From Selaginella tamariscina (Eukaryota > Streptophyta > Lycopodiopsida > Selaginellales > Selaginellaceae), in the NCBI GenBank assembly GCA_003024785.1, contig PUQB01000866.1:19471-83470 (forward strand): 64,000 nucleotides of DNA, given 5' to 3'. The notes under the pieces were generated by a model. That model saw nothing but the letters and a program-made list of their open reading frames with translations, did not search any database and had not been told where the DNA came from. Each line of letters opens with the position of its first letter. Position 1 is the stretch's first letter. Shown here piece by piece: positions 11,590 through 55,708 of the stretch. Position numbers and translations under genes: made by a program.

Positions 11590-14500
11590 TTAGGGTTCTC
11601 TTGTAGACGGGCCCGGATCTGGAGGAACATCAGGAGGAGGTACTGGTGGATCTGTAGGCGGCACAACTTGTTCCCGTTGCACAAAATGCTTCAACCGTTG
11701 CACATGTACAATCTCTGGAGGATCGGGCTGAATGTCGTGCCGAACCTCATAAACCTGTGGCCCTACTTGCCGTAGCACTCGATACGGTCCTTTCCACTGA
11801 GGAAGGAGACTCTTAGCTAAACCACGTACCGTAAGCTTGGGAAAACGAACCAACACCAGTTCATCAACCTTGTACTCCGTAGGAGGACGATGATGCGAGT
11901 TGTAGCGTTGTTGTTGTCCTACTTGTACGCGGCCCAAGTGTTCTGCTGACTCCGCACGAACCAATGGAAGAATGCTCGTCAGATACCGATCCCACGACCT
12001 AGCATCAGCAGCTCGCGGTAACCGAGAAGGCAAACCCAACTCCGTTGGCAACACCGGGTCATGACCATACAAGAGCTTATATGGGGAAGTACCAATGGAA
12101 CTTTGAACTCCAGTGACATAAGCATATCGGAGAGACGGCAGATAACCATCCCAATCCGAATGTTGAAAGTTCACATACTTCGCGATCATCCCCTTGAAGG
12201 TTCTGACGAGCCGTTCCACTAAACCATCTGTCTGAGGATGATAAGCACTTGTGAAAGTGTGGCGTATCCCTAGTCGAGATGTCAAAACATGAAATGCCTC
12301 AGCCATAAATGCGGACCATTATCCGAGAGAATTCGCTCCGGACAAGAATGCTGAAACACGACCCGATTAGGAGAAACTGACCAACAGCAGAAGCAGTCGC
12401 ACTAGCAAGAGCACCAACTTCTACCCAACGAGTTAGGTAATCAGAAGCAATAATAACGTACTCGTTACCAGCAGTTGACCGCGGAAAAGGTCCCATCAAA
12501 TCAAATGCCACCAATCAAACGGACGAGAAACTGCAATTGACTCCAACCGTCCTTCCGAAGCACATGGGGGAGTATTGCGAGCTTGGCACCACACACAGCT
12601 ACGCACATACCGAATCACATCTCCTCGCAACTCCGGCCAATAGAAAGATCTGCGCAGCTTCTCCATCACCCGACGATGTCCCATGTGCCCGCCAAGAATA
12701 GGAGAGTCATGGTAAGCATGGAGGAAGCGTGGAATGAAGATTGAAGGCACCACCAACCGCAAAGGATCATCTGGATCAGTCCCCACAAAATAAAGAAGGT
12801 CATCCTGAAGGCGATACTGTGAATGTAAATGCCTGAAAGGCAAGTCATCAGCAAGTGATGCAGGATTTCAAACCCATCACGAAGCCTTCGAATCCACGGC
12901 TCAACCTTTTGAGCTTCCCGAACCTCATCCAAAGACGGCAAATCTAACTCTGCATTCTGCGGACACTGAATGTCAAGCACAGCAACTGCTGATGGTACGG
13001 AATCTTCATCCAAAAAGTCCACTGAAGCTGGAACAACTGGTTCCTCTGGGGCAACAGAAGAGAGAGAAGGTGGAAGAGGAGCCCGAGAAAGAGCATCAGC
13101 ATCAGCCATGGAACTCCTGGACGATGAACAACTTCAAAGTCGTAAATTTGAAGTTTCAAGGCCCACCGAGCAGTACGCCAATCAAATTCTTCCGCTTCAA
13201 CAACGAAGTGACTGCTGCATGATCGCCTTCCAACAACGTCCGCGAACCATGCAAGTAGGCATGGAGCTTCTCAAAACCCCAAACTGCTGCTAGACACTCC
13301 TTTTCTGTCGTGGAGTAATTCACCTCTGCTGGCTGCAATGTACGGCTGATGTACGCAATGGGATGTCGTTGGCCAGGAACACTCGTACTCTCCTGCATCA
13401 ATACGCCCCGAGGCCGATGTCAGAAGCATCTACACGCAAGATGAAAGGACGGGTAATCCGGGTACGCCAAAACTGGAGGAGTCGTCAACAACTCTTTGAG
13501 ATCTGCAAATGCCTGCTTGCAATCCTTAGACCAAACAAAAGAAGTCATTGACGATTTCAACAACGCGCGCAACGGTGCAGTACGATCTGAAAGATGATCC
13601 ACAAAACGACCCAGATATTGTACCTTGCCAAGAAAGCGTTGCACATCATTCACACACTTTGGCGTAGGGAACTTCAAAACTGCAACTAGTTTGTCAGGAT
13701 CGACTTGCAAACCTTCACGTGAAATGCGATAACCCAGATAAGTGGTGTCCTTTGATCCAAACACACACTTAGATGGCTTCAACTTCAAACCAACTTCCCG
13801 CAGCCATCCAAAACCTTACGTACATCACCGACATGCTCTCCACGTTCCATCCGAATGGATCAAAACATCATCGATGAAATCGCAGTCACCTCCGGCATGT
13901 CGCAAAGAACCTCGTCCATCATACGTTGGAAAGTTGCTGGAGCATTGCTCAAACCGAAAGGCATCACCAAGAACTCGTACAGGCCAAATGGTGTCCGAAA
14001 AGCAGTCTTGGGAATGTCCATGTCAGCCATCGGAACTTGCCAATATCCAGATGCGAGATCTAACTTGGTGAACCAACGGCTCCGCCCCAGTCGATCCAAA
14101 AGGTCTGCAGTATGAGGAAGTGGGTACACATCTGAGACGGTTACCTCATTTAATGGGCGATAGTCAATGCAGAATCGAACGCTCCCATCAGGCTTCGTCA
14201 CAAGGTGAGGTTCGCACACCCAAGGACTTCGAGATTTCCGGATAACACCCTTCTCCAACATCTCTTTGACATTCGCTCGTAAGATCTTGAGCTCCTTTGG
14301 TGACCGACGCCGAACAGGTACCTTGATTGGCCTAGCATCTTCCAGTTGGAATAGGGTGGCGTGTCGCAATCTTGGCCCCAGATGACAAGTCGAAGTTGAA
14401 AAGATCAGCATACTCCTTCTTGAGTTGATCAACAACTACAGCACGACGATCATCTGATGGATCCAGAGAAGGAAAGGAAAAGCATGAAGGAAAATGGTTG

Positions 14501-14881
14501 GAAAAGGGTGAGACAAAAGTGATGGAAGCAGAGGTGGAAGTAGATGGACGAAGTGGAATAGAAGTAAGAGGAATGGAAGAAATACGAGGGAGAGTCAAAC
14601 AAGGGGAGACTTTCAAAGTCACACTTGGCATGATTGCGAGTTAACCAATCCATACCAAGAATAAGGTGAAAAGCTTGACTCGGCACCACCCGTAAAGATT
14701 GAAGCTCGAGCTCACGATCATCCACACGAACAACAATGTCCACTTCATCTCGCGAACAAGCATGAGTATGTCCGTTGCCGTACAGAATGAAGACTGGTTC
14801 TTCCGCACGACGCAAATGAAGGCTACAACGTGTAGCAACAGATTGAGAAACAGAGGACAAACTTGAACCTGTATCCACCAA
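11590..14881 (-). pseudogene. pol region of the Ty3 element
   Basis: Protease is recognised from VDTGSS and LILGMDWL, and reverse transcriptase from RFCIDYRPLN, DLASGYWQVP and MPFGLSNAPATF. RNase H and an integrase zinc region (GHMGHRRV with CVWCQ) follow, then the integrase core with AYHPQTDGLVER. A proline-rich tail ends the polyprotein and no chromodomain is seen. It is a fossil with several breaks. Confidence 0.85.
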
Positions 14882-15390
14882 TACTGAAAGGAAAAGGACG
14901 TGGCGTGTGATTAAAACGAGCTTGAAAAGTGAAAACCGGATGATTTGGTGCCGAGTGAACCCCTTGATGATACTCCCGAAAGAAAGATGGAGGGGTCACT
15001 AATTTATTCGCACAAGGACCCTCCTCTACTCGTGCGATTCGTCGTTTCCTAGAAGATCCACTGCATCACAACCTTCCATTGCAGCAGCACCAATCGGACG
15101 TTGTTGACGCCATGGCCTCCATCCTGGAAATGGGGGACGCCAATCGGAAAACCGTTGACAGCGCCGATACGTGTGTCCAACCTCATCACACGCCCAACAA
15201 CGAACTGCACGTCCACGTCCTCGTCCACGGGCCCACCTTGTGCTGGTACACGAGCGGCAATAGCCTCAACCTCCATCGGAGCAGGTCCATCCCCAACATG
15301 AAGTGGAACAGAGCACGTGAAGGCGCAAGTGGGAGAGGTGAGACTCATATCGTTGTGCCAGCCTCAAAGCATCATCAAGAGTCATTGGAG

Positions 15391-15978
15391 CTAGTGCATG
15401 CACAAGCCCCACAAGGTCTTGACGAAGTGTGGCCACAACATACCTAACTTGATGCGTTCCGACATGTTAGGTTCTGCACGCAGCAAAAGGCTTCGAAAGT
15501 GAACACCAAATTGCATCACCGACTCAGATGGCTCCTGACGAATACGATGCAACTGCTGAAAAGCATCATCACAGTCATCCACATGCCCAAATGCACGTTT
15601 GAAGATCTCTGGAAGAATATTCCAATCTCCACGAGTTGCAACGTCCAGACCATTGTACCACTGCAACGCCGTCCCTTGAAGATAAGTAGGAAACTCACGC
15701 AAACACTGAGCACCGTCCCACGAATGATATGTGGCAACCACAATGAAATGGTCAAACCAATGGTACACATCATCTCCAGGATTTCCGCGAAAGAAATCCG
15801 GCCGGACACGGGGGTTTGCAACATGAGTAGGAGTACCCTGGACTGTGAATGCTGCCATCAACTGAGAATGATTGTTCAATTGCACACGCATGGCATCCAA
15901 CAATTGCATGAGTAACTGCTCCACATACAAGGGATTTGCCTGTTGTGGATTCATGGACAAAAAAGAGACAAAATCCAC
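15391..15978 (-). pseudogene. gag region of the Ty3 element
   Basis: An open stretch of 195 codons has a Ty3 gag core: RPDFFRGNPGDDVYHWFDHF, then AYL-type LQGTALQWYNGL, and RIRQEPSESVMQF. It lies directly downstream of the 5' LTR in the element's orientation. Confidence 0.8.
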
Positions 15979-16101
15979 AAGAAAAGAATAGATCTAAACA
16001 ATGGAAAAGCTAGACCTAAGAAGACAAAGAAAATTGATAAAAAGACACAAATCCAAGCACTCCGTAGGGACAATTAGAGGTGCCCCTCACTTCCACCAAT
16101 G

Positions 16102-20369: not shown

Positions 20370-23300
20370 AGGCTCAAAATGAGGAGATGGATGAGGCTGA
20401 TCCAGGTCGACCCCCTAGGTTAGACAGACCTGGTTGGCGAGAAATAATGATGGATGCCCTAAACGAACTTCGAGGGGATGTTTGGGTTGAACGACCGAAT
20501 CGATAATGTTGCCGTTCGGATTCCAACGAATACTGCAGTGCCAGATGTTCCGCAACCAGACACACGGAAAAAGAAGAAGAAGCATGACTCAGAGTCAGGT
20601 TCCTCTGAATCAGATTCTTCGACGGAAGTAGTGGTGGAGGTCCCAGTAAATTCAAACCGGTAAAGCCTTCGAATTTCATGGGTTCAAAGGATTACAAGGT
20701 TTTGGATGACTGGTTGTATGATATGGAAAGCTATTTCGAGGCTGCTTCCGTGAGAAAGACAGAAAAGGTTGCATGTGCCAAGCAGTTTCTTAAAGAAGAA
20801 GCTAAGACTTGGTGGCGAATTGTTGAAGGTGAACGTGGATACCGAAACAGCTGGAAGCACATGAAAAAGGAGATCAAAAAGCAGTATATGCCGGATGATC
20901 TCGGTTTGCGATTGCGTGCTGACCTGGCACTTTGTCAACAGGGTTCGGGGAAGTCCAATGGACCACGTTTATCGATTCGAAAGTGTACGGCGATTGGTGC
21001 CAAATATGAGCGATGATGAAGCTCGAAGTTGCTTCATGGCTAGCTTGAATGAGAAACGCGAAGAGAAATCTTAAGGTACAAGCCAACAAGCTATCGGGAA
21101 TGTCAAGAGGCAGCTCAAAAGGTTGCTTATGGCATGTCGTTAGAAGACTTGTACAAAGGGGAGGAAGCAAAACCTAAACCAAGGAGTTTCCTCCAAAGTC
21201 TGGGTTCAGAAGGTTTGATAGGCGACCAGATCAATCGCCATCAATTCGAAGTGCAAGTCCCTTTGTCGGCAGTTCCAAGTTTTCGGACACATCAAGACCC
21301 ACCGGATTTCGGAAACCATTGGCGTTACCACCTCCTCAGCAGGCCAAAGGATCGGCTCCAAAGTCTGCTCCCCCGCGTTCCGCAGGCGGGGTTGTGAAAT
21401 GTTATAATTGTAACAAGCCTGGTCATTTTGCTAAAGAGTGTCAGGCACCCTCACAACAATCAGGACATTTCAAGGCGATGGTAGAAGAGGAAGTTGCTGA
21501 ACCAGAAACGCTTGAAGATCCGGAAGATGAGTCAGAAGAGGTAATGTTGTGCCAGACACAACCTGCCTTATTCGCTATTCAAGACAAAACTGACCCTTTG
21601 CTATATTTGACAGGAAGGATACGAGGGGACCGAGTCCGAATGATGATCGATACTGGAGCAACATACAACTTCATATCGACTAGTCTAGCTCGTCGATTGA
21701 ATTTGGATGTAATAAAGATGTGTGAAATAAAGATCAATTTTGGCAAAGGTTCTCAAAATACTAATAATATAGCAAGGGCAGTTCCTGTCCAAATCAAAGA
21801 TTGGAAGGCTAAGCTAGACTTAGTTGTCTTGAATATGACGGGGTTTGACTTTGTTTTGGGTATGGAATGGTTCCATAAACATGTAATCGAAATGAGGGGT
21901 TCCGGAGATAATCGAATCACGCTTGCAGCAGATAAAGAAGGACATTAGAAAAACCACGCTCAAAATGGAAACGCTAACTGATAAGGATTGGAATCCTATG
22001 TTCCTTACCTTAACTCAGTTGCGTAAGGCAGTTAGACATCGAACGTGTGTTTCTTGCAATGGTTTTGGATACTGGTGAAGTCAAAATAGGAGATGGTCAA
22101 GAATCTGTTCCTAACCTATTTTGGAAGTCTTGAACATGTTTAAGGATGTGTTGCCAGAAGACTTGCCGCCTGAGTTACCTCCACGTCGAGTTGTGGACCA
22201 CAGGATAGAGATTTTGCCAGGTTCGTCTCCACCGGCAAGAGCCCCATATCGGTTGAATCCTCAAGAGTTAGTAGAATTGAAGAGACAGCTGACAGAATTG
22301 ATTGGTCGAGGACACATTCGACCTAGTCGATCGCCGTATGGTGCACCTATCTTGTTTGTAATGAAAAAGGATGGTACGATGCGAATGTGTGTGGACTATC
22401 GAGCGCTGAACGCGATAACTATCAAAAAAAGTATCCTCTTCCACGAGTGGACGACTTATTTGATAGGCTATCGAAAGCAAAGTATTTTTCAAGAATAGAC
22501 TTGAGATCGGGGTACCATCAGATTCGGGTAGCAGAGAATGACATTGAGAAGACCGCTTTTCGAACGCGTTATGGATCATTTGAGTTTCTAGTCTTACCAT
22601 TCGGGTTGTGCAATGCTCCAGCAACTTTTTGCACAATGATGGATGATGTGTTTAGAGACTATCTAGACGAGTTCGTAGTGGTGTATATTGATGACATTCT
22701 GATTTTCAGTTCGACAATTGAGGAACATGTGGAACACTTAGAAAAAGTGTTTCAGAGGTTGAGAGAGAACCAGTTGTATGCTAAAGAAAGCAAGTGCGCA
22801 TTTGGTCAAACCAAGATAGATTTCTTGGGACACTTGATCTCAGGTGGGGAGGTTGCCATGGACCCAAAGAAAATTCAAGCTATTACTGAGTGGATGACTT
22901 TAAAAGATGTGCATGAAGTTAGATCATTTCTTGGTCTGACAGGGTATTACCGAAGATTCATAAAGGGTTACTCGGAAATAGCGGCCCCATTGACAGATCT
23001 TACGAAAAACATTCCATGGCATTGGACTCCAGAGTGCCAACGTGCGTTCGTCAAACTCAAAGAGGCTATCTCTTCTGAGCCAGTTTTGCAGTTGCCCATC
23101 TTTGAAGATCCCTTTGAAGTAGAATGTGACGCTTCCGACTTTGCAATTGGTGGTGTATTGCAACAGAAAGGACATCCAGTGTCCTTTTTCTCGAAGAAGT
23201 TAGATGCCGCGCAAACTCGATGGCCTACTCACGAAAAGGAGATGTATGCTATTGTTGCTTCCTTGGAGTATTGGCGTCATTATCTTCCAAGTCATGGCAC

Positions 23301-24560
23301 TGTGGTTTGGACAGATAGTGTAACTCTAAGGTATTTTGAAACGCAGCCGAAGCTATCACCGAAGTATGCTAGATGGCAGCAGAAGTTGGCACGATTTCAG
23401 CCTGAAATCAACATAAAGCGGGAAAGGACAATGTGGTAGCTGATGCACTCAGTAGGAAAGGGTCATCTTCGATTATGTCAGCACCCATGTCAACTTTGTG
23501 GATGAATTTGTGACGGCGTATCCTCAGGACAAGTTTGCTAAGGAGCTTTGAGCCTGGTGGCAAAGAGGAAACAAGTTCATCAGTTACGAAGAGATGGTAA
23601 TATTCCAGCAGGAATAGAAAGTCGAATGGATGCACTCAAACAGGCATTTTGCGTACGAGATGGAGTTCTTTATTATAAAGAAAAGAGACTCTATGTTCCA
23701 GAAGGGACATGGAGGGAGAGGCTGTTAAGAGAGCATCACGACGTTCCTTTGGCAGGACATGGTGGAAGGCATAAGACGTTGGCTTTGTTGAAGCAGGGAT
23801 TCTATTGGCCGGGTATGATAGATGATGTTGCCAAGTATGTCAAGACATGCCCCACATGTCAACAAGTAAAGAGCCGATCGCAAAAACGAGCTGGGAAGTT
23901 GCAGTGTATACCGATTCCAGAGCGGCCATTTCAAAGTGTTACTTTGGACTTTATCATGGGATTGCCAAAATCTTGTGGTTTTAATGCCTCATGGTGGTAG
24001 TCGATCGGTTTTCAAAGGTTGCTCATTTCATTCCAACTGTAGAGACAGTGAATGCAATTCAAGCAGCGAAGTTGTTCTTCCACGAAGTCATAAGAGTGCG
24101 CGGACTACCGGAAACCATGATCTCAGATCGGGATCCTCGGTTTACGGGAAGTTTTGGGGACATTGTTTAAGCAGTTTGGTACGATGCTCAAGTTCAGTAC
24201 AGCTTACCATCCGCAAACTGATGGTCAAACGGAGAGGGTGAACCGACAAGTCGAGGACTATCTCAGATGCTATGTTCAAGGTGATCAACTTGATTGGGCT
24301 GAACACTTAGATATGGCTGAGATATGTTACAATAACTCGACGCACACTGCATCGGATGTAGCCCGATGGAAGTGTTAACTGGGAATAAGGGTGGTATTCC
24401 TCAGAGTATGGTGTTACCGAAAGACGATAGCAATCGAGTTCCATCTGTAGCAGAGTTCACGGGACAATTGTATCGAACATGGGAAGCTGCTCGTCAAGCG
24501 ATGGCTGCAGCACAGGAAAGGTATCGTCAGCAGTACGATAAGCATCACGGGATGTAGAGT
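20370..24560 (+). pseudogene. gag-pol region of the chromovirus
   Basis: The gag CCHC knuckle reads CYNCNKPGHFAKEC. Protease has MIDTGATYNF. Reverse transcriptase has [10 protein letters not shown] and YIDDILIF within a 350-codon open stretch (22,387-23,439) that also covers RNase H. The integrase zinc region has CPTCQQVK and its core has AYHPQTDGQTERVNRQ. The region is a fossil with several breaks. Its 3' part is separated from the rest by the nested element. Confidence 0.85.
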
Positions 24561-25367: not shown

Positions 25368-26712
25368 CTAAGGACGAGTTCTACGAGTCTGAGGACCTGA
25401 TTTAGCAGGATAATGCCGATGAAAGGCAACAACTTTGGAAGAAGCATGGAGTAAGTTGGATGCAGGTTCCCAAGTGCGATCGGTAGGCAAATAACCTTTC
25501 CAATCCACCAAGTATTGAAGTTGGCGGCGATGAAGACGAGAATTAAGGATGGCTGCAACTTCGTACTCAGGTTCACTAGCAATGACCACAGGAGGGGGAG
25601 GAGAAGAAGCACGACCAGGAAGAGAAGAAGGATGATACGGCTCCAACAAGGAGGTGTGAAACACAGGATGAAGTTTCACTGTGGATGGTAACTCGAGTCG
25701 GAAAGCTACAGGATTTACCTCCGCCACGATCCTGTAAGGGCCCAATCGTTAAAATCCAACTTAGAAGAAGGCCTGTTGGTGCGAATGTGGCGACGAAGAA
25801 GCCACACGAGATCACCAATCTTGTATGTAGGTGCCGGCTGACGGTGAGCATCAGCATGATGCTTGTACCGTTCCTGTGCCTGCTGAAGGTGAACCTGGAG
25901 ATCATCCTGTACCTGCCAAAGATGCTGAAGACGATCCTGTACTGCAGGAGCGGAAGAAGAAGAAGCGGGAGGAGCGAAGTCAAAACGTGGATGGTGGCCT
26001 GTAAGAGCAAAGAAAGGTGTCTGTCCTGTAGATGCGTGAACGGAGTTGTTGTAGGCAAACTCTGCCATTGGAAGAAGGTCCAACCAGTTGTCCTGCTGTA
26101 ACTGATGAAGCAACGAAGATACTGTTCTAAGGTCTGAATTGTGCGTTCGGACTGCCCATCGATTTGTGGGTGATATCCTGAAGAAAGATCTGCTTTAACC
26201 TGTACACTCCGAAGAAGCTCTCGCCAAAACTTGGACATGAATTGTGGACCTCGATCGGAAACAATGCTCTCACGAAGACCATGATGTCGGAACACCTCAC
26301 GGATCACCAGCTCAGCAGTTGTCTGACCTGTAGCTGTCTTGTTGCAGGATAGGAAATGAGCCTGCTTGGTGAAACGGTCAACCACCACAAGAACTGCATC
26401 GAATCCACGAGAAGGAGGAAGATCTGTGAGGAAATCCATAGAAATGGATCTCCAAGGAGTAGAAGGAATAGGAAGAGGACGAAGAAGACCAAAGGGTGCA
26501 TGACGAGGCATCTTCGACCTGTTGCAGGTGTCACAACTCCGTACAAACCTTTCCACAAAACCTCGCAACCCAGGCCACCAATAGTTGCGAGTCACCAACT
26601 CAACTATCTTGGCCACACCAAAATGTCCTGTAGCCGGGGTATCATGACAATCCTGTACCACATGAGTCCTGTAAACACCAACAGGAACGTACAGGAGACC
26701 TTCCCGGTACAA
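25368..26712 (-). pseudogene. Integrase and chromodomain of the nested element
   Basis: The zinc region (GHFGVAKI, CDTCNRSK) is followed by the integrase core (SMDFLTDLPPSRGFDAVLVV, IVSDRGPQF, GYHPQIDGQSERTIQTLEQY). The chromodomain has EYEVAAILNSRLHRR and YLVDWKGYLPTDRTWEP. The chromodomain assigns it to the chromoviruses. It is a fossil. Confidence 0.85.
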
Positions 26713-27097
26713 GAGTCCGTCCTGTATGGCAAACAGCGTGTAGTCTGAACGAGAACTGGAGGAAGAGGAGCTTGCAATGTCAGGACTAATGGTGAGAACA
26801 CATTCCTTGCCAAGTCGTCTGTAGCCAACTGCTAACGGATGTCCTGTAGAAGTGTTGAATCTACTGGAGCCTGATGAACATGTAGTGCTGATGAACGGAA
26901 AAGAGGTGAATCCTGTCGAGGATCAAACTTCGACATTGATACAGGATTGGAAGAACCCTGTACAGGAATCCGCGAACTTACAGAAGTGGAGAAAGCCTGC
27001 AGATGTGCTGAGGAACCAACAGGAGGTGGATCAGGAATGGAGAAAGCCTGTGGATATGCTGAGGAATTGATATGAGGTGAATCCTGTCGAGGAGTCT

Positions 27098-28566
27098 TCA
27101 ATACTGGTACAGGGAACATGCACAGTCAATCCTGCAGCAGACACAAGGATGTATCCTGCACGCGGGAAGGTACAGGATTGATCCTGGCTGCTGGAGAGGA
27201 AACGTGAGTGTCCTAGACCTCCAGTCGATCTGAGGATTTGCAACCATGAACCATGGCATGCCCAAAATGATGGGAGTCGACCAAGTCTTGATCAAGTTGA
27301 AGGAAATCGAACAGTTGAATGTGCCATGATTGCAAAAGAGAGGTTTGGTAGCATGGGTAACTGCCCAGAAGCAATTAGACGACCATCGGCCACCTCTACA
27401 GGAACTGCAGCGCTTCAACTTCACCACCGGAATGCCATGTTGAGTTGCAAAAGTGTCATCCATGAAGCATGCATTTGCACCAGTGTCTAACAGGGTAAAC
27501 TTCTTGAGCTCTCGATTGTTGAGGCGAATGTGTATAGGAAACTTGAGTGATGAAATGGTATGAGCAACACTAATGGAGCCTGCACCTACATCCAACTTCG
27601 CGACTCCTAGACAGATGGACATTGAACTTCGGCTGCAACTTTTGCACGTCTTGAACTTTCTAGCTTTAGTAGACATTCCGCCACCTTGTGTCCTACTTCA
27701 CCACAATACAAGCATAAGTTCTCATTGCGACGGCGTTGCTTCTCAGCAGTTGAAAGTGGGACACGCTTGGATTTGTTAACCTCCATATGAACTGCTCCAG
27801 AAGGTGTCGTAGGAACATGTGCTGCGGCTACAGGATTGGCTGGTAGGAATTGCTGACGGGATTTTCCTGACGGCGCTCGAACAAATGATTGTCGCAACAA
27901 ACGGCATGTTGAATGATCTCTGCTAAGGTTTGGGCATCCGGTAACGTAAGGAAAGGTCATTCACGTCATCCCTCAACCCAAAACGGAAGTGTTCGATCAA
28001 TGCAGTCTCATCCCATGGAACATTCGTGCAAAGTTGTTGAAATTCAAATGCATAAACAGAAGCTGGTCGGGATCCTTGTGTGAGCTTGCGTAACTTTGTG
28101 CATGTAGAATGGTACTTATCAGGATCTCCAAAGCAGGCTTCAAAGGCAGCCACGAATCCTTCAAAATCTTCCAGCAATGGGTTGTCACATTCCAACAAAG
28201 GGGCAACCCAAGCTCGTGGAGATCCAACTAGCAAGGATGCCAAAAGGCCAACCTTTTGTGCATCAGTTGAGTAGCGGCGTGGTTGCATGCGGATCAAGAG
28301 CCGGATCTGATTCAGGAAACCTTGGAAATCGGTGCGATTGCCACCAAACTTTTCTGGCATGCTGATCTTTGGCTCTGAAGAAAAGTTCGATGGAGAGGAA
28401 ACCACCGATGCTTGAGAGAGAGCATGCGCAGCAGCCTTGGAGGATGCATCAACAGCTGCATGCGCCGCGTTGGTGGAACCTTGCAGATCTGTGACCACTT
28501 GGCGCAAAGTGGCCAACTCGTGAAGCAACATTTGGTGCTTGCGTTGAATCTGCTCAAAAAGGCCAT
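27098..28566 (-). pseudogene. gag and protease of the nested element
   Basis: The gag core includes KISMPEKFGGNRTDFQGFLN and FEACFGDPDKYHS. The knuckle is CLYCGEVGHKVAEC. The protease reads LLDTGANACFMDDTFA. It lies directly inside the 5' LTR in the element's orientation and is a fossil. Confidence 0.8.
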
Positions 28567-28662
28567 GATCTAATGAAAGAAAAAGGAGGAAAACGAAGGA
28601 AAAGAATCAAGGAAAATAAAGTAGCTGGAAACGGAAAGCTATGAAAGCAGTTACTATCAAAC

Positions 28663-47153: not shown

Positions 47154-47463
47154 AGACACAACACTTCTAGGAACATTTCTGGAAACTTAAGTCCACGTGT
47201 GCGTATACTTTAATCTTAGCCGTTGAGGTCGTTCTAGAATATTCGGTATATTGTGTAAAAGATTATCAAGCATGAACCTAATAAAAATATTAATTTATAC
47301 ATGCGTCTCAACATAAGAAAGTTTTTAAAGGCCAAGTGAAATATCTTTCATGATTTTTATATATGGCAAATATTAACATGAATAAATGTTAAGTTAACAC
47401 TTTAAGCAAGAAATCGCAAGTGATAAGGTGTGTCATAATAATTTCTTATGAAGGAGAGCTTGG

Positions 47464-47580
47464 GGTCTCGGCGAAAAGGAGGCTCCGGCTCAGGAGGCTT
47501 CATATTATTCTAGTATATTCGCGGATATTCTAGGGTTATTCTAGCATATTCTAGAATATTCTCAAGAATATTCTAGAATA
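47464..47580. repeat. Left terminal inverted repeat of the MULE
   Basis: It starts GGGTCTCGGCG, followed by GGAGGCTCCGGCTCA and several ATATTCTAGAATATTCT-like units. It aligns with the reverse complement of 55,640-55,708 at about 18 of the first 28 positions. Confidence 0.6.
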
Positions 47581-47598
47581 TATAAGTTTTTTTTAATA

Positions 47599-47626
47599 TG
47601 CCGACTGGCTTAATATATGCCGACTG
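47599..47626. repeat. Subterminal TGCCGACTG motifs, left end
   Basis: TGCCGACTGGCTTAATA occurs twice in tandem (starts at 47,599 and 47,618). The same core is at 55,611 (TGCCGACTGA) and, with one change, at 55,630 (TGCCGACCAG). Confidence 0.8.
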
Positions 47627-47659
47627 GCTTAATAAACATTATCCTAAACCCTAAACCAT

Positions 47660-50600
47660 TTATCCTTGTAGCACCGGTGGGTCATGAACTCTGTTGCAAT
47701 TCACCAGCAAACGGTGGACCTCCATGTCACTGAGCGATCGCCTTTGTAGAAAATATGTGACTTCCGGGTTCAAGCCAAGCACACGGCTATAGACGAAGTA
47801 CATGTGTACACATGGGCTCCAACTTTTGCTCTTCTGAAATGTAGAACAACTGCATGAAGGATAAGTATTAATAGTCACCTTTGCAGAGTCATTTCCTGCC
47901 GACACAACGAAAGCCTCCTTCCGTCCTCTAGCTGTCACTTCAACATTTCGCACACAACCTAAAAACGTCTTGGCCTTGCGGAAATTCTTCTCTTGTTCCT
48001 TAGACATTTTTGTTGGAGTCCGAACCATACGTCCTTCGAAAGGTGGAATTGTTGTAGATCCAGCTCCACGTGGTGGCGATGGTGTTTTGTCCTTCTGACC
48101 CTCATCTACTCTTCCTGCCATCCCCTGTAAACCTTCCAGAACAAAGCCTGCATCCTGTAGTTCTCTGACCTCCTCACTTGTCAGCTTCGTTTCCTTGAGC
48201 ACAGGCCAAACCGTTGGTGGTGTTGGAATTCGTGACCGAAGAATTTTGCCGTTTGGCCGCGTGAAACACCCTGAATCTTTTGGGCAGAACCACATCATCT
48301 GTTGTACATACTCCTCATTCCCCAAGGCATCAATGTACATTCGTTTTCCATAGAATCCTGGTGCTGGCACTCTGCTTGGATAACCGATTGGTTTTCCACA
48401 CAGAGCAGTTCCTTCCTGATTCATCCCCAAACACTTAACCTTACTGGATGCTCCGATTCGTCTGATGGCCCACTCTGTTTGAGCAATCTCTCTCTCCGAA
48501 ACCTCTTCGAACCTTAACCTCTTTCTCCTGTTGTTTTGGACCACCCGCTCTGTGTACTCTACATCATGTCTGTGTGAACGTCGAGCATCAGACTGTTCTG
48601 TTCCTGTGACTGTTCTCCTAACAGTTTGCACTCGAACGTTAGTGGTACGTGAACTCCGGGCTGGTCAAGTGTTCCTCGCCTTCCACCAGATTAATAATTG
48701 TTGATGGAGATACACTTTTCCCCTCAGAGAGTTTGCGTTGCACTCGTTTCAACAGAGTTTCCTTCGAAGGCCCTGACCCTGTATACCTCCCTTCTATTGC
48801 CGCTTTCACCTTCGCACTCTGCATAACTGCATCGGTGAGGTCTAACATTGTCGCCTCCAGCAGTGGTACTCTTTTGGCCAATCTTGCTCTTCTTGCTCTA
48901 GCGTGAATCACTTCAGCATTGTTTGTAGTTGGAACGCTCGCGAGTCCTTCTTCTGTCATGTCTCCCAGTTCCGCCATGGAGATGTGGTCCTCATGCCTGA
49001 TCCACCAAGACAGCCATGTCTTCAAAGCTCGAATGTTTGACGCTCGTCCTTCCCAAAAGACTCGAGAATTGCCAGTTGTTCTTTCTTAGATTGTTCATTC
49101 AGTGCTGCAGGCCAGGCACGAGCAAGCTTCATGTGTTCTTCGCGATGTTCTTCTGCGATCCATTTCTTTGTCACCTGACGCACGGATTGCATAAAGTGAA
49201 ACAGACAGCTTCTTTCCCTCCCTTTCATCTTTGCTCCGTTGTTGAATACTTGGCGCAAGGCTATCCATATCGCTCCAGCCTCATCCGACATGAAACCAGC
49301 AAAGTTGACATTCTCCAAACCCTGCTTCTTACAAACCTCTAGCATTGTGTTCAAGAACTTCAGCACTGCAACATTATCTTCGCGGCACATATCTGCGTAA
49401 GCTATAGTCACCATGGATCTGACACTGCAAGAGAGCGTTAGATAACGAAGATTAGAAAGTGTTATGAAGAGTTTTACAACTTACAATGGGTCATAAAGGT
49501 GTATTCCAATTGTCGCCCAGTCTGGTATGCGGTGCGTGTGGTCCAGAACAACCCATTGATCATGAAGGTCTCCTCCACTTTGACACCTTCTGATGTACTC
49601 AACTCCTGAACCCGGTCCCTCAACTGTCATTTTGAAGATCAGAGGCTGCTCCTCAGCACCATGCAGTTCCATCCCTGGAACATGTATGACGTGAATGAAA
49701 GGTATTGGCAGCTTTGTCTTCAGCTCCAGAAGACCCTCGTAACCCTCTCTAAAGTGTGTCTCCTTCTGTCTTGATTGTGTAATCCAGTCCCGAGTCCTAA
49801 AGAAAAGGTCACGTCAGTGTGTAGAGATCTAAAAAAAATACCTTCGATGGTTTGTTAGAGGTTCAAGTTTTGAGAGTAAACCAGTGTACGAGACTTCTCC
49901 TTCTTCCTTGAAAAGTTCTTCAAAGATGAGCTCACGCGCGGCTTGAAACTCAATCACTCGTTGATTGGTTCGCGGACTGCTCTTTACCACGTTGCTGACA
50001 CTAGATCTGGCTCGCTGAACGTTTGAAGCTGACACTGAGGGGCTGACTGGATGCTGATGAACACCTCTGTGAATGAACAACCTTGTAAAAGAAATGTCGT
50101 CTGGCAGAATGTAGTACACATAAGCCGGACAAGTGTGCACCAGCAATGGCTCCTCTCCACAATGCTTACATTTTATGCCTATTACTTTGCCTGTCTCAGT
50201 TGTCTTTGCCTTCTCCACAGCACCCTTGAAGTGACATTCATTTGCTTTCTTCTCAAAAGCCAAGTAGGGGCAGGTAGGATTGATGCATTGGAGATGTCCG
50301 ACACATGAACTTCGACTGACTCGCGCCGGAACATGCCAGTGTGTTGTGCTCGGGTGTGTCCAATGGTAGCAGCCATCCTTGCGATTCATCCCCGAGTACT
50401 TCTCTGTGCTTTCTGTCTTAGGGGGAAGTTCGAAAATGACATTTCCATTGTATATCTGCGGTAGTTCAGAGACTCGTTTAACTTCAGACGAACCAATGAG
50501 ATCCTTCCCTATCCTACATTTGTCTGCTCTTAGAAGACACACCAGCATGGATTCCTCACGCTCCTCTGTCCGCAACCTGAACAACGGGCCCTTTGCCGGG

Positions 50601-50821
50601 CACAATGTGTAAAAGACAAACTGGTTTGATGCATTGCCTTCTGGTAACAACTCCACATCTTCTCCAGAACTCGCAGAAACTGACATCAATTGAACCACAT
50701 GTATACTGAACCAACAAGGAATGTTGAAAGCAATGTGAAGATCATGTTCAAACACAAAAGCATTTCCATCTTCATCGACTGGGAAATCTTTGTCAATGCC
50801 TTCATAGGTAACTCTGGCCAT
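47660..50821 (-). CDS. MULE-type transposase with WRKY/GCM1-like and SWIM zinc regions
   Basis: It is a cut-and-paste transposase of about 1,000 residues acting in the nucleus on the element ends. Exon 1 is 50,821-49,842, exon 2 is 49,796-49,485, and exon 3 starts at 49,424; the introns are 45 and 60 nt with GT-AG. The N-terminal half has a Cys/His region (CINPTC, CKHCG, then HRGVHQHP), as in the WRKY/GCM1 fingers of MULEs. The DDE core follows: VVLDHTHRIPDW (first D), FAGFMSDEAGAIWIAL (second D) with ERSCLFHF (CxxH), and PTTNNAEVIHA (E). A SWIM finger lies near the C-terminus (CSCSTFQKSKSWSPCVH). Frame offsets at about 49,024 and 48,640 each coincide with a short GT...AG stretch (14 and 31 nt), so they are either tiny introns or frameshifts. 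Confidence 0.85.
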
Positions 50822-51300
50822 GACAACGCAAGGAGAAAGCTCGGTGGTTTAGGAAAGCAAAGCAAAAGATTAAACACACTTTCTCTTACCAAAAAAAAAT
50901 TACAATCGTTAACAATAAACGTGAATACACGTTTGTATATAATTAATTCTATGCTGCCCAGTTCACAGTGTTCTTAATGATGTCCTCTCTAGTATCACCG
51001 ATTTAATTTAATTTCTACCTTTTATGATTTGAAATATCTTCACATTTACCAATTATTCACATATTTTAAAATAAACCCTAAATATTAATGTCACATTTAT
51101 TCCGTAGGGTTCACTGTTTTCATTGCGGCTAGGGTTTTTTGGTAGATAGGGTTTACTGTTTCCATTGCGGCTAGGGTTCTTTCAATCTCAGATCTGTTTC
51201 CACTGCGCAGATCCAGAGGGTTTCTTCAATCTCAGATCTCAGAGTTACGGTTTCCACTGCGGCGCCATCCATTTCGACTCGATTCGTGCAGCGCCCAAGT
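50822..51300. promoter_or_regulatory. Divergent promoter region between the two MULE genes
   Basis: The only non-coding space between the transposase start and the leader array lies here. AGGGTT..ACTGTTT.CATTG then CGGCTAGGGTT is directly repeated at about 51,106-51,140 and 51,148-51,180, and CAATCTCAGATCT occurs twice (51,183-51,240). No TATA box stands out. Transcription of both genes probably starts in or near this stretch; that is an inference. Confidence 0.45.
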
Positions 51301-52271
51301 ATAACAATGGAGATTTCTGTGCCGATTTAGATTCTCGGCACCATCCTGCTCAGCCGGCGGCCACAAGGTATGTGTAATTTCTGTATTTTATGATTTGCTG
51401 CTCAAAGTATTTCTTTTTCCAGAGATATAGGGTCTTTTATTTGTGCCGACTGAGAGCACGGCACCATCCTGGTTCAGTCGGCAAACACAAGGTATCGTCG
51501 ATTTATTTATTTTTTTCCTTGCGGCTCAAGTATACGTGTCACAATGTTTTTTTTTCAGAGTTAATGGGTCTTTCCATTTGTGCCGACTGAGAGTGACGGC
51601 ACCATCCTGGTTCAGTCGGCAAAAGGTATTTTCGATTTGTTTTTTTTTTTCTGGCTCAAGTATTCGTATCACAAGGTTTTTTTTTCAGAGTTAATGGGTC
51701 TTCCCATTTGTGCCGACTGAGAGTGACGGCACCATCCTAGTTCAGTCGGCAGCCACAAGGTATGTTCGATATATTTATTTTTTTTCTGGATCATGTATTC
51801 GTATCACATTGTTTTTTTTCAGAGTTAATGTGTCTTCTCATTTGTGCCGACTGAGAGTGACGGCACCATCCTTCTTCAGTCGGCAGCCACAAGGTATTTT
51901 GAATTTGTTTATATTTTTCTTTGCGGCTCAAGTATCCGTATAACAATGTTTTTTTTCAGAGTTATAGTGTCTTCCCATTTGTGCCGACTGAGAGTGACGG
52001 CACCATCCTTCTTCAGTCGGCAGCCACAAGGTATTTTGAATTAGTTTTTTTTTTCTTTGCGTCTCAAGTATTTCTTTTAAAACAGTTAATGGGTCTTCCC
52101 ATTTGTGCCGTCTGAGAGGGACGGCACCATCCTATCTCAGTCGGCACCATTATCTCTTCAGTGCCGTCTGACAGAGTCGGCACAAACTATCTCAGTCGGC
52201 AGGTTTTTTCTTCTACATCTCTCTGCCGACTGAGAGGGTCGGCACATCTAGCTTGAGTCGGCAGCCACAAG
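51300..52271 (+). repeat. Tandem leader mini-exon array with inverted-repeat motif and uORFs
   Basis: About seven units have a period near 130 nt. Each exon-like unit starts after a T-rich tract plus CAG and ends CACAAG before GTAT. Exon-like blocks are 51,423-51,491, 51,559-51,625, 51,689-51,759, 51,823-51,893, 51,960-52,030 and 52,086-52,271 (the last is longer), plus the end of a first block at 51,367. Intron-like blocks are 55-67 nt. Each exon-like unit carries TGCCGACTGA and TCAGTCGGCA about 21 nt apart, and an alternative GTGCCG/CGGCAC hairpin. In four units ATG-GGT-CTT opens an eight-codon ORF (MGLPICAD or close) that stops at the TGA of CCGACTGA. Confidence 0.8.
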
Positions 52272-52348
52272 GTTAGTCATCTTTGTTTGTTTTTTTATTT
52301 TGACTCCTCATCAATTGACTTGTGTGTTTACTTTCCAGAGTTTACAAA

Positions 52349-55300
52349 ATGGTGAGAGCTTCAAAACGTCTACTAGAGACTGCGCCTGATGAAGAGCCAC
52401 GGGAAGAGAAGAGGATATCGAAGCAGAAGCGAGGCAAGAGAGGAGAACCATCTAATGTAGCAAAGGAGGATCCTCCAGTGACTCAGTCTGGAGTAGTAGC
52501 AGTTGAGCAAGAACAGCCTCCACCAACAATCACAGATTTCCCGGAGAGCTCGTCGCAGTTGCCTCCTTCATCCGCTGAGGTTGCAGTCCTGAACGAGCAA
52601 GTGCAGATGACAGAGGCAGCTGAAGCTAGCGAGGACGACTTGGAGGAGGCAGTCAGCAAAAAGAGAGGCCGCGGGAAAGCTGATTCAAAAGGCAAGAAGG
52701 CGAAGAGCGATAAGGAGCCGAAGGAGTTATACAGCATACCGGCGAGCCTGCATTTGGAGAGCTCAGCAAACCTGCTCGACAAAATTACTATCAAGGGACT
52801 TGGTGATCCTCCTGATGTGCCCATCTGCAGAATACATTCCAACGAGGTGGTTCGACGAGTGAACCCAGGGGACTTGGACAGGCTGGTGTCATCGTTGTTC
52901 ATTCTGTCCATCGGAGATCGACTCACTGCTGAGGAGCTATCGGAGCTGTCGAAGGACACGATTCAGTACGAGCAGCACCGGTCTTTCGAGCAAGCTCTTA
53001 CTCAGCCGGAGTACAAACAGTGGGCTTCAAGGCTCTCAAACAGGAAGTTTAGCTGCTGGGACGGGAACCATAGGCTACAGGCTTTGCAGAAGCTGTACCG
53101 AGAGGATGCAGAGGACAACCAGCGATGGGCTATTCGCGTTCGATCGAGTTTCATCTCCACGGAGAACCTCGACATTCTTCAACTGGTTTCGATGTTCCAA
53201 TCGATTAACATGTGAGTATTTTCTTTTCTTTTTGTTAAGAGTTTAGACTTACAGTTTCGTTGAACAGATCTTCAGCAACATCTGTGGAAACAACGCTACC
53301 ACATATTCTCCTCGCTGTAAAGGCGGTCTGCACTAGTACAGAAGGAACTCAGAAAATCCTCGAGTCACTCACGGAGGTTGATCGTCTTGAGGTGCGGAAG
53401 TGGAAGGAGAGTTCATCAGGAAAGACGGCTTGGCATCCTCTTCCGAACCTGATCTGCGCAAAGATACTTTTCAAGGTAACCTCCGATTTAATTTATAGGA
53501 AAGAAATTTTTAACTTGTTCTATGTGCAGAACGAGATCGACGATGATCTCGACAGAGCAGTCACCAGTGCTAAGGGCAATCCACAGGTTGAGGTGAACCT
53601 AAGCAGCTAGTGTACAAGAAGCATGACAAGCGTATGCACAAGTTCCTCTCCATCATAGACCCAGACTTGGGGGAGGAGTGGTTCCAGAAGGTGACAAATC
53701 TCTCATAAGCAGTGTCGCTGGATGGGCATTGAGAAGCTGTATGCGATGTCAAGGGCGAAGATTCCAAACATGCTGCGACTCCGATACCTCAACAAGCTCA
53801 CCCGTCTCGAATCCAAGGCAGAACAACAGACACTTGGGCTACCGGGCATGCAGGACAAAGAGTGGATCAAGTGGTTCACCTTGGACTTATATTGGAAGGC
53901 TGTGCGCGAGGAAGCCATTCAGATCCTTAAGGGGTTGCGAGAGGATGGTGAAGAAGTTGGAACGGATGTCGACTTCATGAGCTGGTTTGACGAGATGAGA
54001 ATTCGGAGCAAGTGCCTGGTCTTTCAGCCCTTCCATGACTGCATACGGTTCACTTATTCGATGGAGCCGAATGAGTTTCTGGAGCGTGAGGAATCTGCGC
54101 GTCGGATGATATGGAGGTAAGCTTTCAATCCAGCATTGCTACTGTCTGACTTTGTGTTGCAGGTTCATACTGGCGAAGCAAATGACACCGTCCCATACGA
54201 TGAAGCTGTGGACAGATCATACAAGCGAGCCTCACATGTGGTCGAAGAGCAGAGGAGCTCTAACACCGTTCGAACGGGAGCATGTTCCATTCTGGCTCGA
54301 CTGTCCGTCGCAACAGCCACCAGCTTGGGAGAGCACACTATTCGACATGCACGCCAATGATCTACCAGCGATTGTTTGGGAGCCAGAAGAAGTAGAGGCT
54401 ATCAAGAAGAGCAAGATGAAGAAGACGGTGCGGAAGACAACTACACCTGCAAAGGGATCGGGAGCGGGACCAAGCTCTTCTACAGCACCTCCGCCGGCAT
54501 TCGACTTTACAATCAATGAGGTACAGCCACTTGTAGCTAGTTTGGACATCAAGGACGACCTGATGACCTTCATCCCGACCCTGGCTGCATCCTACGACCT
54601 AGCTGTGTGCGACATGGAGGAGATGAGCAGGTCTTTCTTCGAGCCAGGTGCTTCCCAGACAGAGGTGTACACCAAGCTCCGAGAACAGGTTGACAGACTA
54701 CATACGGTTGAGTCACAAACGTTGTTCCAGGAAGTGGTAGGTGAATACGGCTTCAACCTCATCATCCTCGACTTGCCCAATGAGCTTGTATATGGAGGTG
54801 CTAGCATCAACAAGGACATTGTGCAGCTAGATCCGGTGAAGTTTGAGGAGGCCTTGCAGTTCAGTGGAATGCACTTGGCAGCGAGTGGTTTCATGGTCGT
54901 CTTCGCGAGTTCTCCTTCTGTTTCGGCGGTGATTCAGGCGGCTGCAGTAATCAACTTGGAGGTTGCAGGGACTTACAGCGTCTACCGTGCACGAGGCTGG
55001 GGATACCGTGACAAAATTAAGGTAAGCTAGCTATTCAAGTTCAAGTTTAACTTGGTCTATGTGGCAGGATAACTTGTTAGTTCTCTTGGTGCTGCAAAGC
55101 TCTGAGAAGAAGTCGAAGAGGCCAAACCCTCTGGCGTTGACGAACACGATCCTCGTCGACACTGCCGACCGTTATCAGGAGGCTTGGTAAGGAAGTGCTT
55201 TGCTATGTTTATCCTAATGGAAGATTGTGCAGGATTATGATTCAACCGAAGAGTGTTCGACTCATGCAGCTTTTGATCGAGCGTCTCAGTAGACCTGGCG

Positions 55301-55530
55301 ACCTAGTCTGGGATATTGGTTCCGGAACCGGGTCATCATTGTTAGCTGCCGTCGAGCTCGGAAGGAATATTATAGGAACCGAGAAGAGTTTCGAACTCTC
55401 TAGGTTGGCAACAAACAAGCTTGCAGAGAACATTAGACCAGAAGAGTTACCTACTCAAACACCTCCACGTCCAAGCGTAACTGGTGGTTCGAGAACTGCA
55501 GCTTTACTTAAGATGAAGAAGAAACTTTAG
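52349..55530 (+). CDS. ParB/sulfiredoxin-like domain fused to a beta-class DNA amino-methyltransferase
   Basis: Exons are 52,349-53,211, 53,268-53,475, 53,530-54,116, 54,163-55,021, 55,068-55,186 and 55,233-55,530. Introns are 46-56 nt with GT-AG. The start ATG lies 10 nt after the last leader acceptor. Residues about 1-130 are charged and low-complexity with basic clusters, which could serve as a nuclear signal. Residues about 150-290 form a ParB/Srx-like domain (VPICRIHSNEVVRRVNPGDL, then CWDGNHRLQALQ). The C-terminal third is methyltransferase in beta-class order. Motif IV region is FNLIILDLPNELV, then LAASGFMVVF. Then come the Q-P-K-S-V-x-L-M motif X-like segment and motif I VWDIGSGTGSSLLAA with NIIGTEKS. 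Motif IV is normally (D/S/N)PP(Y/F/W); here it is DLPN, so catalysis is uncertain. Two compensating frame offsets (53,593-53,606 and 53,691-53,709) coincide with GT...AG stretches. Confidence 0.8.
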
Positions 55531-55639
55531 CTAATGTATATTGAGTAATAAATTAAGCTAATATAAAAAAAATTAAAAAGAAATACAACAGTTTTAATAG
55601 AATTCTTTTTTGCCGACTGAGGCCAATACTGCCGACCAG

Positions 55640-55708
55640 AAAGAATATTCCAAAATATTCTAGAATATTCTTGAATATTGAGCCCAAGCCTCCAAAATGG
55701 CGACACTC
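55640..55708. repeat. Right terminal inverted repeat of the MULE
   Basis: On the minus strand it reads GAGTGTCGCCATTTTGGAGG, then CTTGGGCTCA, then ATTCAAGAATATTCTAG. This is the inverse of the left end. The sequence beyond it (AACATCAAC) does not repeat at the left flank. Confidence 0.6.

Follow-up and report, generated by a model that had tools for sequence, protein, structure and literature searches.

A MULE-type transposon of Selaginella tamariscina with a methyltransferase-fold second gene and a conserved array of paired half-sites

The window analysed here, a stretch of 64,000 nucleotides of the Selaginella tamariscina genome (contig PUQB01000866.1, positions 19,471 to 83,470; contig C1244 of a 300.7-Mb assembly of 1391 contigs), contains one copy of a transposon of the Mutator-like element (MULE) type, in which a transposase gene on the minus strand and a second gene on the plus strand diverge from each other. 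The element extends from 47463 to 55708, beginning one base beyond the start given by an earlier, sequence-only reading of this DNA, and is matched end to end by five other copies (L012, L013, L014, L017 and L037) with arrays of varying length. Copies in the same genome form two families, A, the window's own, whose long alignments are ~87-99% identical to the window, and B, which is ~64-68% identical to A. The sequence-only reading had placed a divergent gene pair between inverted ends, and this holds, with terminal inverted repeats at 47463-47600 and 55604-55708 that are imperfect and, in family A, weak; alignment scores of the ends were 57, 52 and 63 in three copies against shuffle maxima of 51, 46 and 42. 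Palindromes of the type AATATTC/TTCTAGAA are clustered within ~120 bp of either end (at 47504-47581 and 55642-55679 in the window), separate from the paired-site arrays described below, and are probably the transposase site.

The transposase gene encodes ~1020 amino acids in three exons at 49842-50821 (exon 1, with the ATG at 50821-50819), 49485-49796 (exon 2) and 47660-49424 (exon 3), the boundaries of the first two having been read from the sequence. Exon 2 holds the candidate first catalytic aspartate, in VLDHT, and exon 3 the candidate second aspartate, a CxxH motif, the glutamate in TTNNAE and a C-terminal CxC..CxH; exon 3 has two frame breaks in the window copy, near 49060 and 48650, and the corresponding exon of family B reads open in L023. 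The transposases of the two families are 65% identical, and the candidate catalytic residues, assigned by eye as D412, D478 and E602, are invariant between them together with C504 and H507 (CLFH, CxxH) and the C-terminal CxC..CxH. In the DDE triad of MULE transposases a CxxH stands after the second D and before the E, as it does among the candidate residues here. Of the proposal of a MULE transposase with a SWIM motif, the order D, D, CxxH, E is borne out and a CxC..CxH that may represent the SWIM motif is visible by eye, but the SWIM model PF04434 fell below the cut-off (E 0.0053-0.04) and the Pfam MULE model PF10551 gave no match at E 1, such that the protein, if a MULE transposase, is a divergent one. 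A search of PDB with the transposase returned nothing relevant.

Five GT-AG introns, each 46-56 nt long, separate the six exons of the second gene, which is open for 992 amino acids in the intact copy L013. Its predicted protein begins with a charged N-terminus and a ParB/Srx-like domain containing DGNHR (exon 1, 52349-53211), continues through a long middle region that includes exon 3 (53530-54116, preceded by exon 2 at 53268-53475), and ends with motif IV in exon 4 (54163-55021) followed, beyond exon 5 (55068-55186), by motifs X and I (DIGSGTG) in exon 6 (55233-55531). A candidate 22-nt intron within exon 3 was rejected, as an alignment of 12 copies gives a 2-nt indel at that place. In the window copy, exon 1 carries a 33-nt deletion, equivalent to 11 codons of the DGNHR domain, and exon 3 has two frame breaks; this deletion, the frame breaks in both genes and the absence of a target-site duplication indicate that the window copy is damaged or partly mis-assembled.

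The methyltransferase assignment is carried by the last exon, which matches Pfam PF01555 (N6_N4_Mtase) above the cut-off at E 1.5e-9, over profile positions 165-219 of 221 only, and DNA methyltransferases among the PHROGs (best 3.5e-11). A profile built from families A and B matched the PDB chains MboIIA (1.6e-4), DpnA (5.5e-4) and CcrM (0.002) at motifs X-I. With its GT-AG introns, this Pfam match and a motif X and S-adenosylmethionine (SAM) motif I standing in the beta-class (N6_N4) order, the gene agrees with the earlier description of a spliced beta-class protein with motifs IV, X and I. Catalysis is unproven, since motif IV reads DLPN instead of [DNS]PP[YFW]; of 40 loci, 28 (at 21 distinct places) have DLPN and none showed a different tetrad, the stretch in the other 12 being either unmatched by the search pattern or beyond the reach of the locus. 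The tetrad may represent an unusual active site, or the protein may be a SAM-binding fold without transfer.

Beyond the methyltransferase motifs, relatives of the second protein were scarce. Full-length searches, with 7992 and 7985 candidates scored, gave no match at E 0.001, and a profile of the methyltransferase part returned six matches at E <=10 from 5.8 billion proteins, none significant (best 0.078). The second best of these, also not significant (E 0.15), was P0004, a fusion of ParB and a methylase, with which hhalign aligned the whole second protein in the motif I region only (probability 93.9%). Phages were matched by the methyltransferase end only (best E shown 3e-4), bacterial and archaeal genomes yielded no homologue over most of the protein, and viral contigs gave no useful match to either protein of the element. 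A phage or bacterial origin of the gene is not shown by these searches of proteins, phages, viral contigs and bacterial and archaeal genomes, which found no homologue over most of the protein. The protein EmiRose gp39 was considered as a ParB fusion and rejected, being a plain methyltransferase.

Both genes are present in the genome at high copy number. There were at least 150 matches to PF01555 (150 scored of 739 candidates), every one above the cut-off, at least 137 to exon 1 of the second gene (136 scored of 1738; 76 at a printed identity of 100%) and at least 120 to exon 1 of the transposase (119 scored of 1968), and because each gene occurs in well over 100 places among the matches listed, the observation goes beyond chance. 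A divergent second-gene exon lies 1.0-2.3 kb from 65 of the 119 transposase exons, and there were no same-strand or convergent pairs within 5 kb among the matches listed, one fragmentary row of each list having been excluded from the count. The remaining 54 are unpaired at least partly as a listing effect, since two of them, at C113:321578 (L014) and C1293:526002 (L017), do carry the second gene. In 24 copies taken from the window's own genome and selected by the second gene only, transposase sequence is present in 20, and at least 80% of the transposase lies upstream on the opposite strand in 16; two copies (L016 and L040) are rearranged, and four (L009, L018, L019 and L039) have no transposase sequence within the stretch retrieved. 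The same two-gene layout occurs in families A and B. The central claim of the sequence-only reading, that a MULE-type transposon has a methyltransferase-like second gene, is supported by these counts, and a single-copy host gene of this type, which would have spoken against the claim, was not seen among the matches listed, to which no dedicated search for one was added.

Target-site duplications were scored as the best of lengths 8-11 bp with a shift of at most 1 in 22 sequences, in 11 of which both ends were located. Perfect duplications of 9-10 bp flank eight of these 11 copies and represent seven distinct sites, one duplication being common to L023 and L028; near-perfect duplications flank L013 (8/9) and L012 (8/10), and those of L017, L022 and L026 were read by eye only. 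The family copies consequently show the 8-11 bp (usually 9) target-site duplication of MULEs, and 9-bp duplications are given for MuDR elements in the part of PMC3627910 cited here. The transposase gene and the methyltransferase-fold gene transpose jointly between inverted ends with 9-bp duplications. An artefact of assembly or of annotation, or a chance position of a host gene beside a MULE, would be in keeping with the frame breaks and missing duplication of the window copy, but is scarcely credible given the seven distinct insertions and the number of places per gene, and this explanation is refuted for the family as a whole.

Some of the copies showed further rearrangement. In L019 (C531:70794-80694), a large inverted repeat contains two family B second genes in head-to-head orientation, with the transposase not in the stretch, and in L011 and L012 an extra inverted fragment of the right end of the element is found just beyond the right end, as in composite or aborted transposition. 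The copies L023 and L028 have flanks in common, as well as their target duplication, over the stretch retrieved, possibly indicative of a segmental duplication or of duplicated contigs.

The element is young and recently active. Over 3.2 kb of the second gene, seven of eight family B copies have 0-3 substitutions from the column majority (57 in L020), with 2-7 indel runs in each copy, mostly of one or two bases, and the counts for the transposase region of eight family B copies are 0-35 for substitutions and 0-12 for indel runs. In the second-gene region, small indels are more numerous than substitutions in six of eight B copies and only one of 12 A copies, substitutions exceeding indel runs in the other 11. 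The excess in family B points to assembly error there, and the reverse pattern in family A suggests that some of its frame breaks are probably real, perhaps including those of the window, which further weakens an artefactual explanation. The indel pattern of L020 and L022-L028 also suggests that frame-based annotation of this genome may miss transposon genes.

Long-term purifying selection acts on both genes. When family A is compared with family B, the proportion of synonymous differences (pS) is 0.78-0.86, which is saturated, and that of non-synonymous differences (pN) is 0.23-0.31, a range that covers both genes and the DGNHR, middle and methyltransferase regions; a short N-terminal piece of 41 codons has a pS of 0.69 and a pN of 0.43. 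Within family A, the ratio of non-synonymous to synonymous rates (dN/dS) of the second gene relative to L013 is 0.29-0.41 in nine of 11 comparisons, at dS 0.003-0.136, the remaining two being the window copy (0.144) and L037 (undefined). As it is constrained both between and within families, the second gene most likely has a function within the element. MULEs often capture fragments of host genes, and the gene could on that basis be hitch-hiking cargo, captured without a role in the element; this is very improbable for a six-exon gene that is open in L013, has a pN far below a saturated pS between families and a dN/dS of ~0.3 within family A, and keeps the same layout in both families. Functionless cargo was rejected on the constraint between families and the dN/dS within family A.

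A further feature of the element is an array of ~137-bp repeats at 51414-52272, upstream of the second gene, containing the 9-mer TGCCGACTG and its complement CAGTCGGCA as paired half-sites. Two TGCCGACTG sites are also found near the left end (47599-47626, plus strand) and one near the right end (55611-55619, plus strand), and neither word occurs in the remaining 55.75 kb of the window. This 9-mer is the commonest word common to family A (17 in L013) and family B (14 in L028). Of words occurring at least five times, 53 in A and 14 in B, two are in common, CAGTCGGCA and AGAATATTC, against 0.006 expected, and only 53 of 5000 shuffled word sets had even one common word. Across 13 copies there are 5-23 sites within the element and 0-1 in the flanks retrieved, and first-order Markov controls of L013 and L028 had at most 1 site. 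As end sites, family A has one on the right and, except in L017, which has none there, one or two on the left; family B has one full 9-mer near the right end and, at the left, just the 7-mer TGCCGAC (L028).

The arrangement of the sites is conserved to a greater extent than the sequence around them. In 11 copies from both families, TGCCGACTG is followed by an inward-facing CAGTCGGCA 29-32 bp on, start to start, or ~three helical turns, whereas the repeat period of the array is ~137 bp in A and ~40 bp in B, in otherwise different sequence. Genome-wide, the pair TGCCGACTG-N21..23-CAGTCGGCA occurs 2155 times, compared with 0 for a reversed control, and the family B palindrome CAGTCGGCATGCCGACTG 1135 times, against 0. 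The new observation is that one paired half-site array is common to families A and B and lies just upstream of the second gene, and the two families have apparently kept the paired half-site and amplified it separately. The A repeat units at 51414-52146 of the window have T-rich CAG and AAGGTAT at their borders, in the manner of a mini-exon that is repeated together with its splice sites, and the A array, read by eye, may also be a multi-exon 5' untranslated region able to form hairpins.

The same paired half-site in otherwise unlike arrays is best accounted for by a DNA-binding protein that the element itself encodes and that acts as a dimer, and the position of the array would favour the second protein in this role, in which it would regulate its own gene and recognise its own element. 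Alternatively, the arrays could serve as promoter sites or be bound by the transposase, with the second protein acting in an unrelated step, such as DNA repair, target choice or as a partner of the transposase. This is consistent with the presence of TGCCGAC near the ends in both families and with the 65% identity of the transposases. However, in 11 copies the array contains the majority of the sites (6-22 per copy) and ends 124-126 bp before the ATG of the second gene in family A (9-17 sites) and 101-103 bp before it in family B (6-22 sites; 32 bp in L020), and the ends carry clusters of another motif, leaving the alternative on the unlikely side.

The reading preferred here, in which our confidence is evenly divided, is that of a two-gene MULE-type transposon whose second protein is a self-targeting regulator comparable to VANC, built on a methyltransferase fold. 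In the sections of PMC5735166 drawn on here, VANC of the Arabidopsis VANDAL elements, which are of MuDR type (PMC12730594, in part), binds arrays of YAGTATTAY that vary between related transposable elements and induces loss of DNA methylation. Similarly, the second protein, probably in dimeric form, would bind the paired TGCCGACTG half-sites in its own upstream region, as well as the single sites near the ends, and this binding would confine its action to its own family. At the arrays it would either modify the DNA (N6A or N4C) or occupy it, keeping the promoters and ends of the element accessible and so combining anti-silencing with self-regulation, as VANC does for VANDAL elements. Given the methyltransferase fold, which distinguishes the protein from VANC, it could act by placing a methyl mark that overrides the cytosine methylation of the host or keeps it out. 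The suggestion of the sequence-only reading that the enzyme may act on element DNA, by marking or shielding it, gains support from the conserved paired-site arrays, of which the second protein is a candidate binder; its methyltransferase activity is unproven.

Several observations weigh against a VANC-like regulator of this kind. The transposase is as well conserved as the second protein and could bind the arrays itself, the end sites are incomplete in the A copy L017 and the B copy L028, and an RNA role is possible for the A array, whose units resemble repeated 5' untranslated exons. The DLPN tetrad departs from the N6/N4 enzymes described in the part of PMC8885841 cited here, which have SPPY, DPPY/F, NPPY or DPPW at motif IV, and in the bdelloid enzyme N4CMT of that source a change of SPPY to APPA abolished activity. 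For the DGNHR domain, finally, searches of PHROGs, Pfam, PDB and NCBIfam returned nothing of ParB type.

A more specific alternative is an active, self-modifying methyltransferase that would place N6-methyladenine (6mA) or N4-methylcytosine (4mC) at the array sites, so as to mark the DNA for transposition or to keep the cytosine methylation of the host away. The conserved SAM motif DIGSGTG, the conserved motif IV, the constraint on the methyltransferase region and the precedents for methyltransferases borne by transposable elements (parts of PMC5890265 and PMC3627910) are in its favour; DLPN lacks the aromatic residue and the first proline of the tetrads given in the cited part of PMC8885841, and this alternative is likewise on the unlikely side. 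A variant in which a fused, ParB-like DGNHR-methyltransferase protein reads the paired arrays on copies of its family as centromere-like (parS-like) sites and writes 6mA or 4mC, a mark of bacterial type, on the element, for family-specific silencing escape or transposition tagging, is considered doubtful. The GNHR-type ParB/Srx domain named by the sequence-only reading is present in so far as DGNHR is found, and its ParB label is unproven, resting on motifs read by eye: against five ParB-type proteins, hhalign aligned the DGNHR segment alone with the ParB DGNER at a probability of 2.8% (P 0.016), and a single-sequence structure model of part of the window's DGNHR exon, in which the 11 codons are missing, reached a predicted local distance difference test (pLDDT) score of 37.2.

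The element resembles VANDAL and VANC, as described in the consulted part of PMC5735166, in combining a transposase with an extra gene and tandem motif arrays that are element-specific, lie in non-coding parts and vary between related families. It differs in its methyltransferase fold, the word 'methyltransferase' being absent from the main text of that paper, and in its inverted pairs ~31 bp apart, as VANC sites are copies of YAGTATTAY in the same orientation; the likeness is one of possible working only. Other transposable elements with DNA methyltransferase genes are the DIRS retrotransposons with Dam-like N6A enzymes and retrotransposons of Symbiodinium and Klebsormidium with C5 DNA methyltransferases, but these are retrotransposons with enzymes of other types, and no cis-array is described for them in the sections of PMC5890265 cited here. 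DNA transposons with a methyltransferase or other accessory gene include virus-integrated Mariner elements with a methyltransferase and an endonuclease, and Fanzor-bearing MuDR elements (PMC3627910, in part); the viral Mariners differ in being Tc/mariner elements of large viruses whose enzymes are of C5 or Methyltransf_26 type with a paired endonuclease. Fungal DNA transposons encode another DNA-base-modifying enzyme, the TET/JBP dioxygenases, proposed in the cited part of PMC12730594 to allow silencing escape, but these oxidise methyl marks rather than writing them and belong to fungi and to other superfamilies.

At the level of the protein, the bacterial and phage ParB-methylase fusions such as P0004 (PF02195 and PF01555) have the same order of a ParB-like part followed by an N6_N4 methyltransferase, but P0004 has 464 amino acids, ADPPW at motif IV and no comparable long middle region, and a ParB similarity to fusions of this type is not established. 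The bdelloid N4CMT likewise has an N6_N4 methyltransferase fold in a eukaryote, and differs in being horizontally acquired with a chromodomain and an SPPY motif (PMC8885841, in part). No earlier MULE with an N6_N4-type methyltransferase or a ParB gene was found in the literature searched, which included few subscription papers and was without Repbase Reports.

Few cases of transposable elements with their own DNA-modifying enzyme are known, and the presence of a methyltransferase-like gene together with matching site clusters suggests an element that tags or controls copies of itself. With a MULE-type element that is high in copy number, recently active and equipped with a conserved cis-site array, the epigenetic self-management of selfish DNA becomes directly testable, since there is a defined site, a candidate protein and a large set of natural targets. 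A protein that methylates would give a plant-type genome a transposon-borne source of 6mA or 4mC; one that does not would represent a methyltransferase fold converted to sequence-specific regulation. An Rfam search gave 0 matches. Elsewhere in the window, pieces of Ty3/gypsy-like retrotransposon genes, recognised by Pfam as gag, protease, reverse transcriptase, RNase H and integrase, lie at 11590-15993 (minus strand), 21178-23439 (plus) and 25576-28606 (minus).

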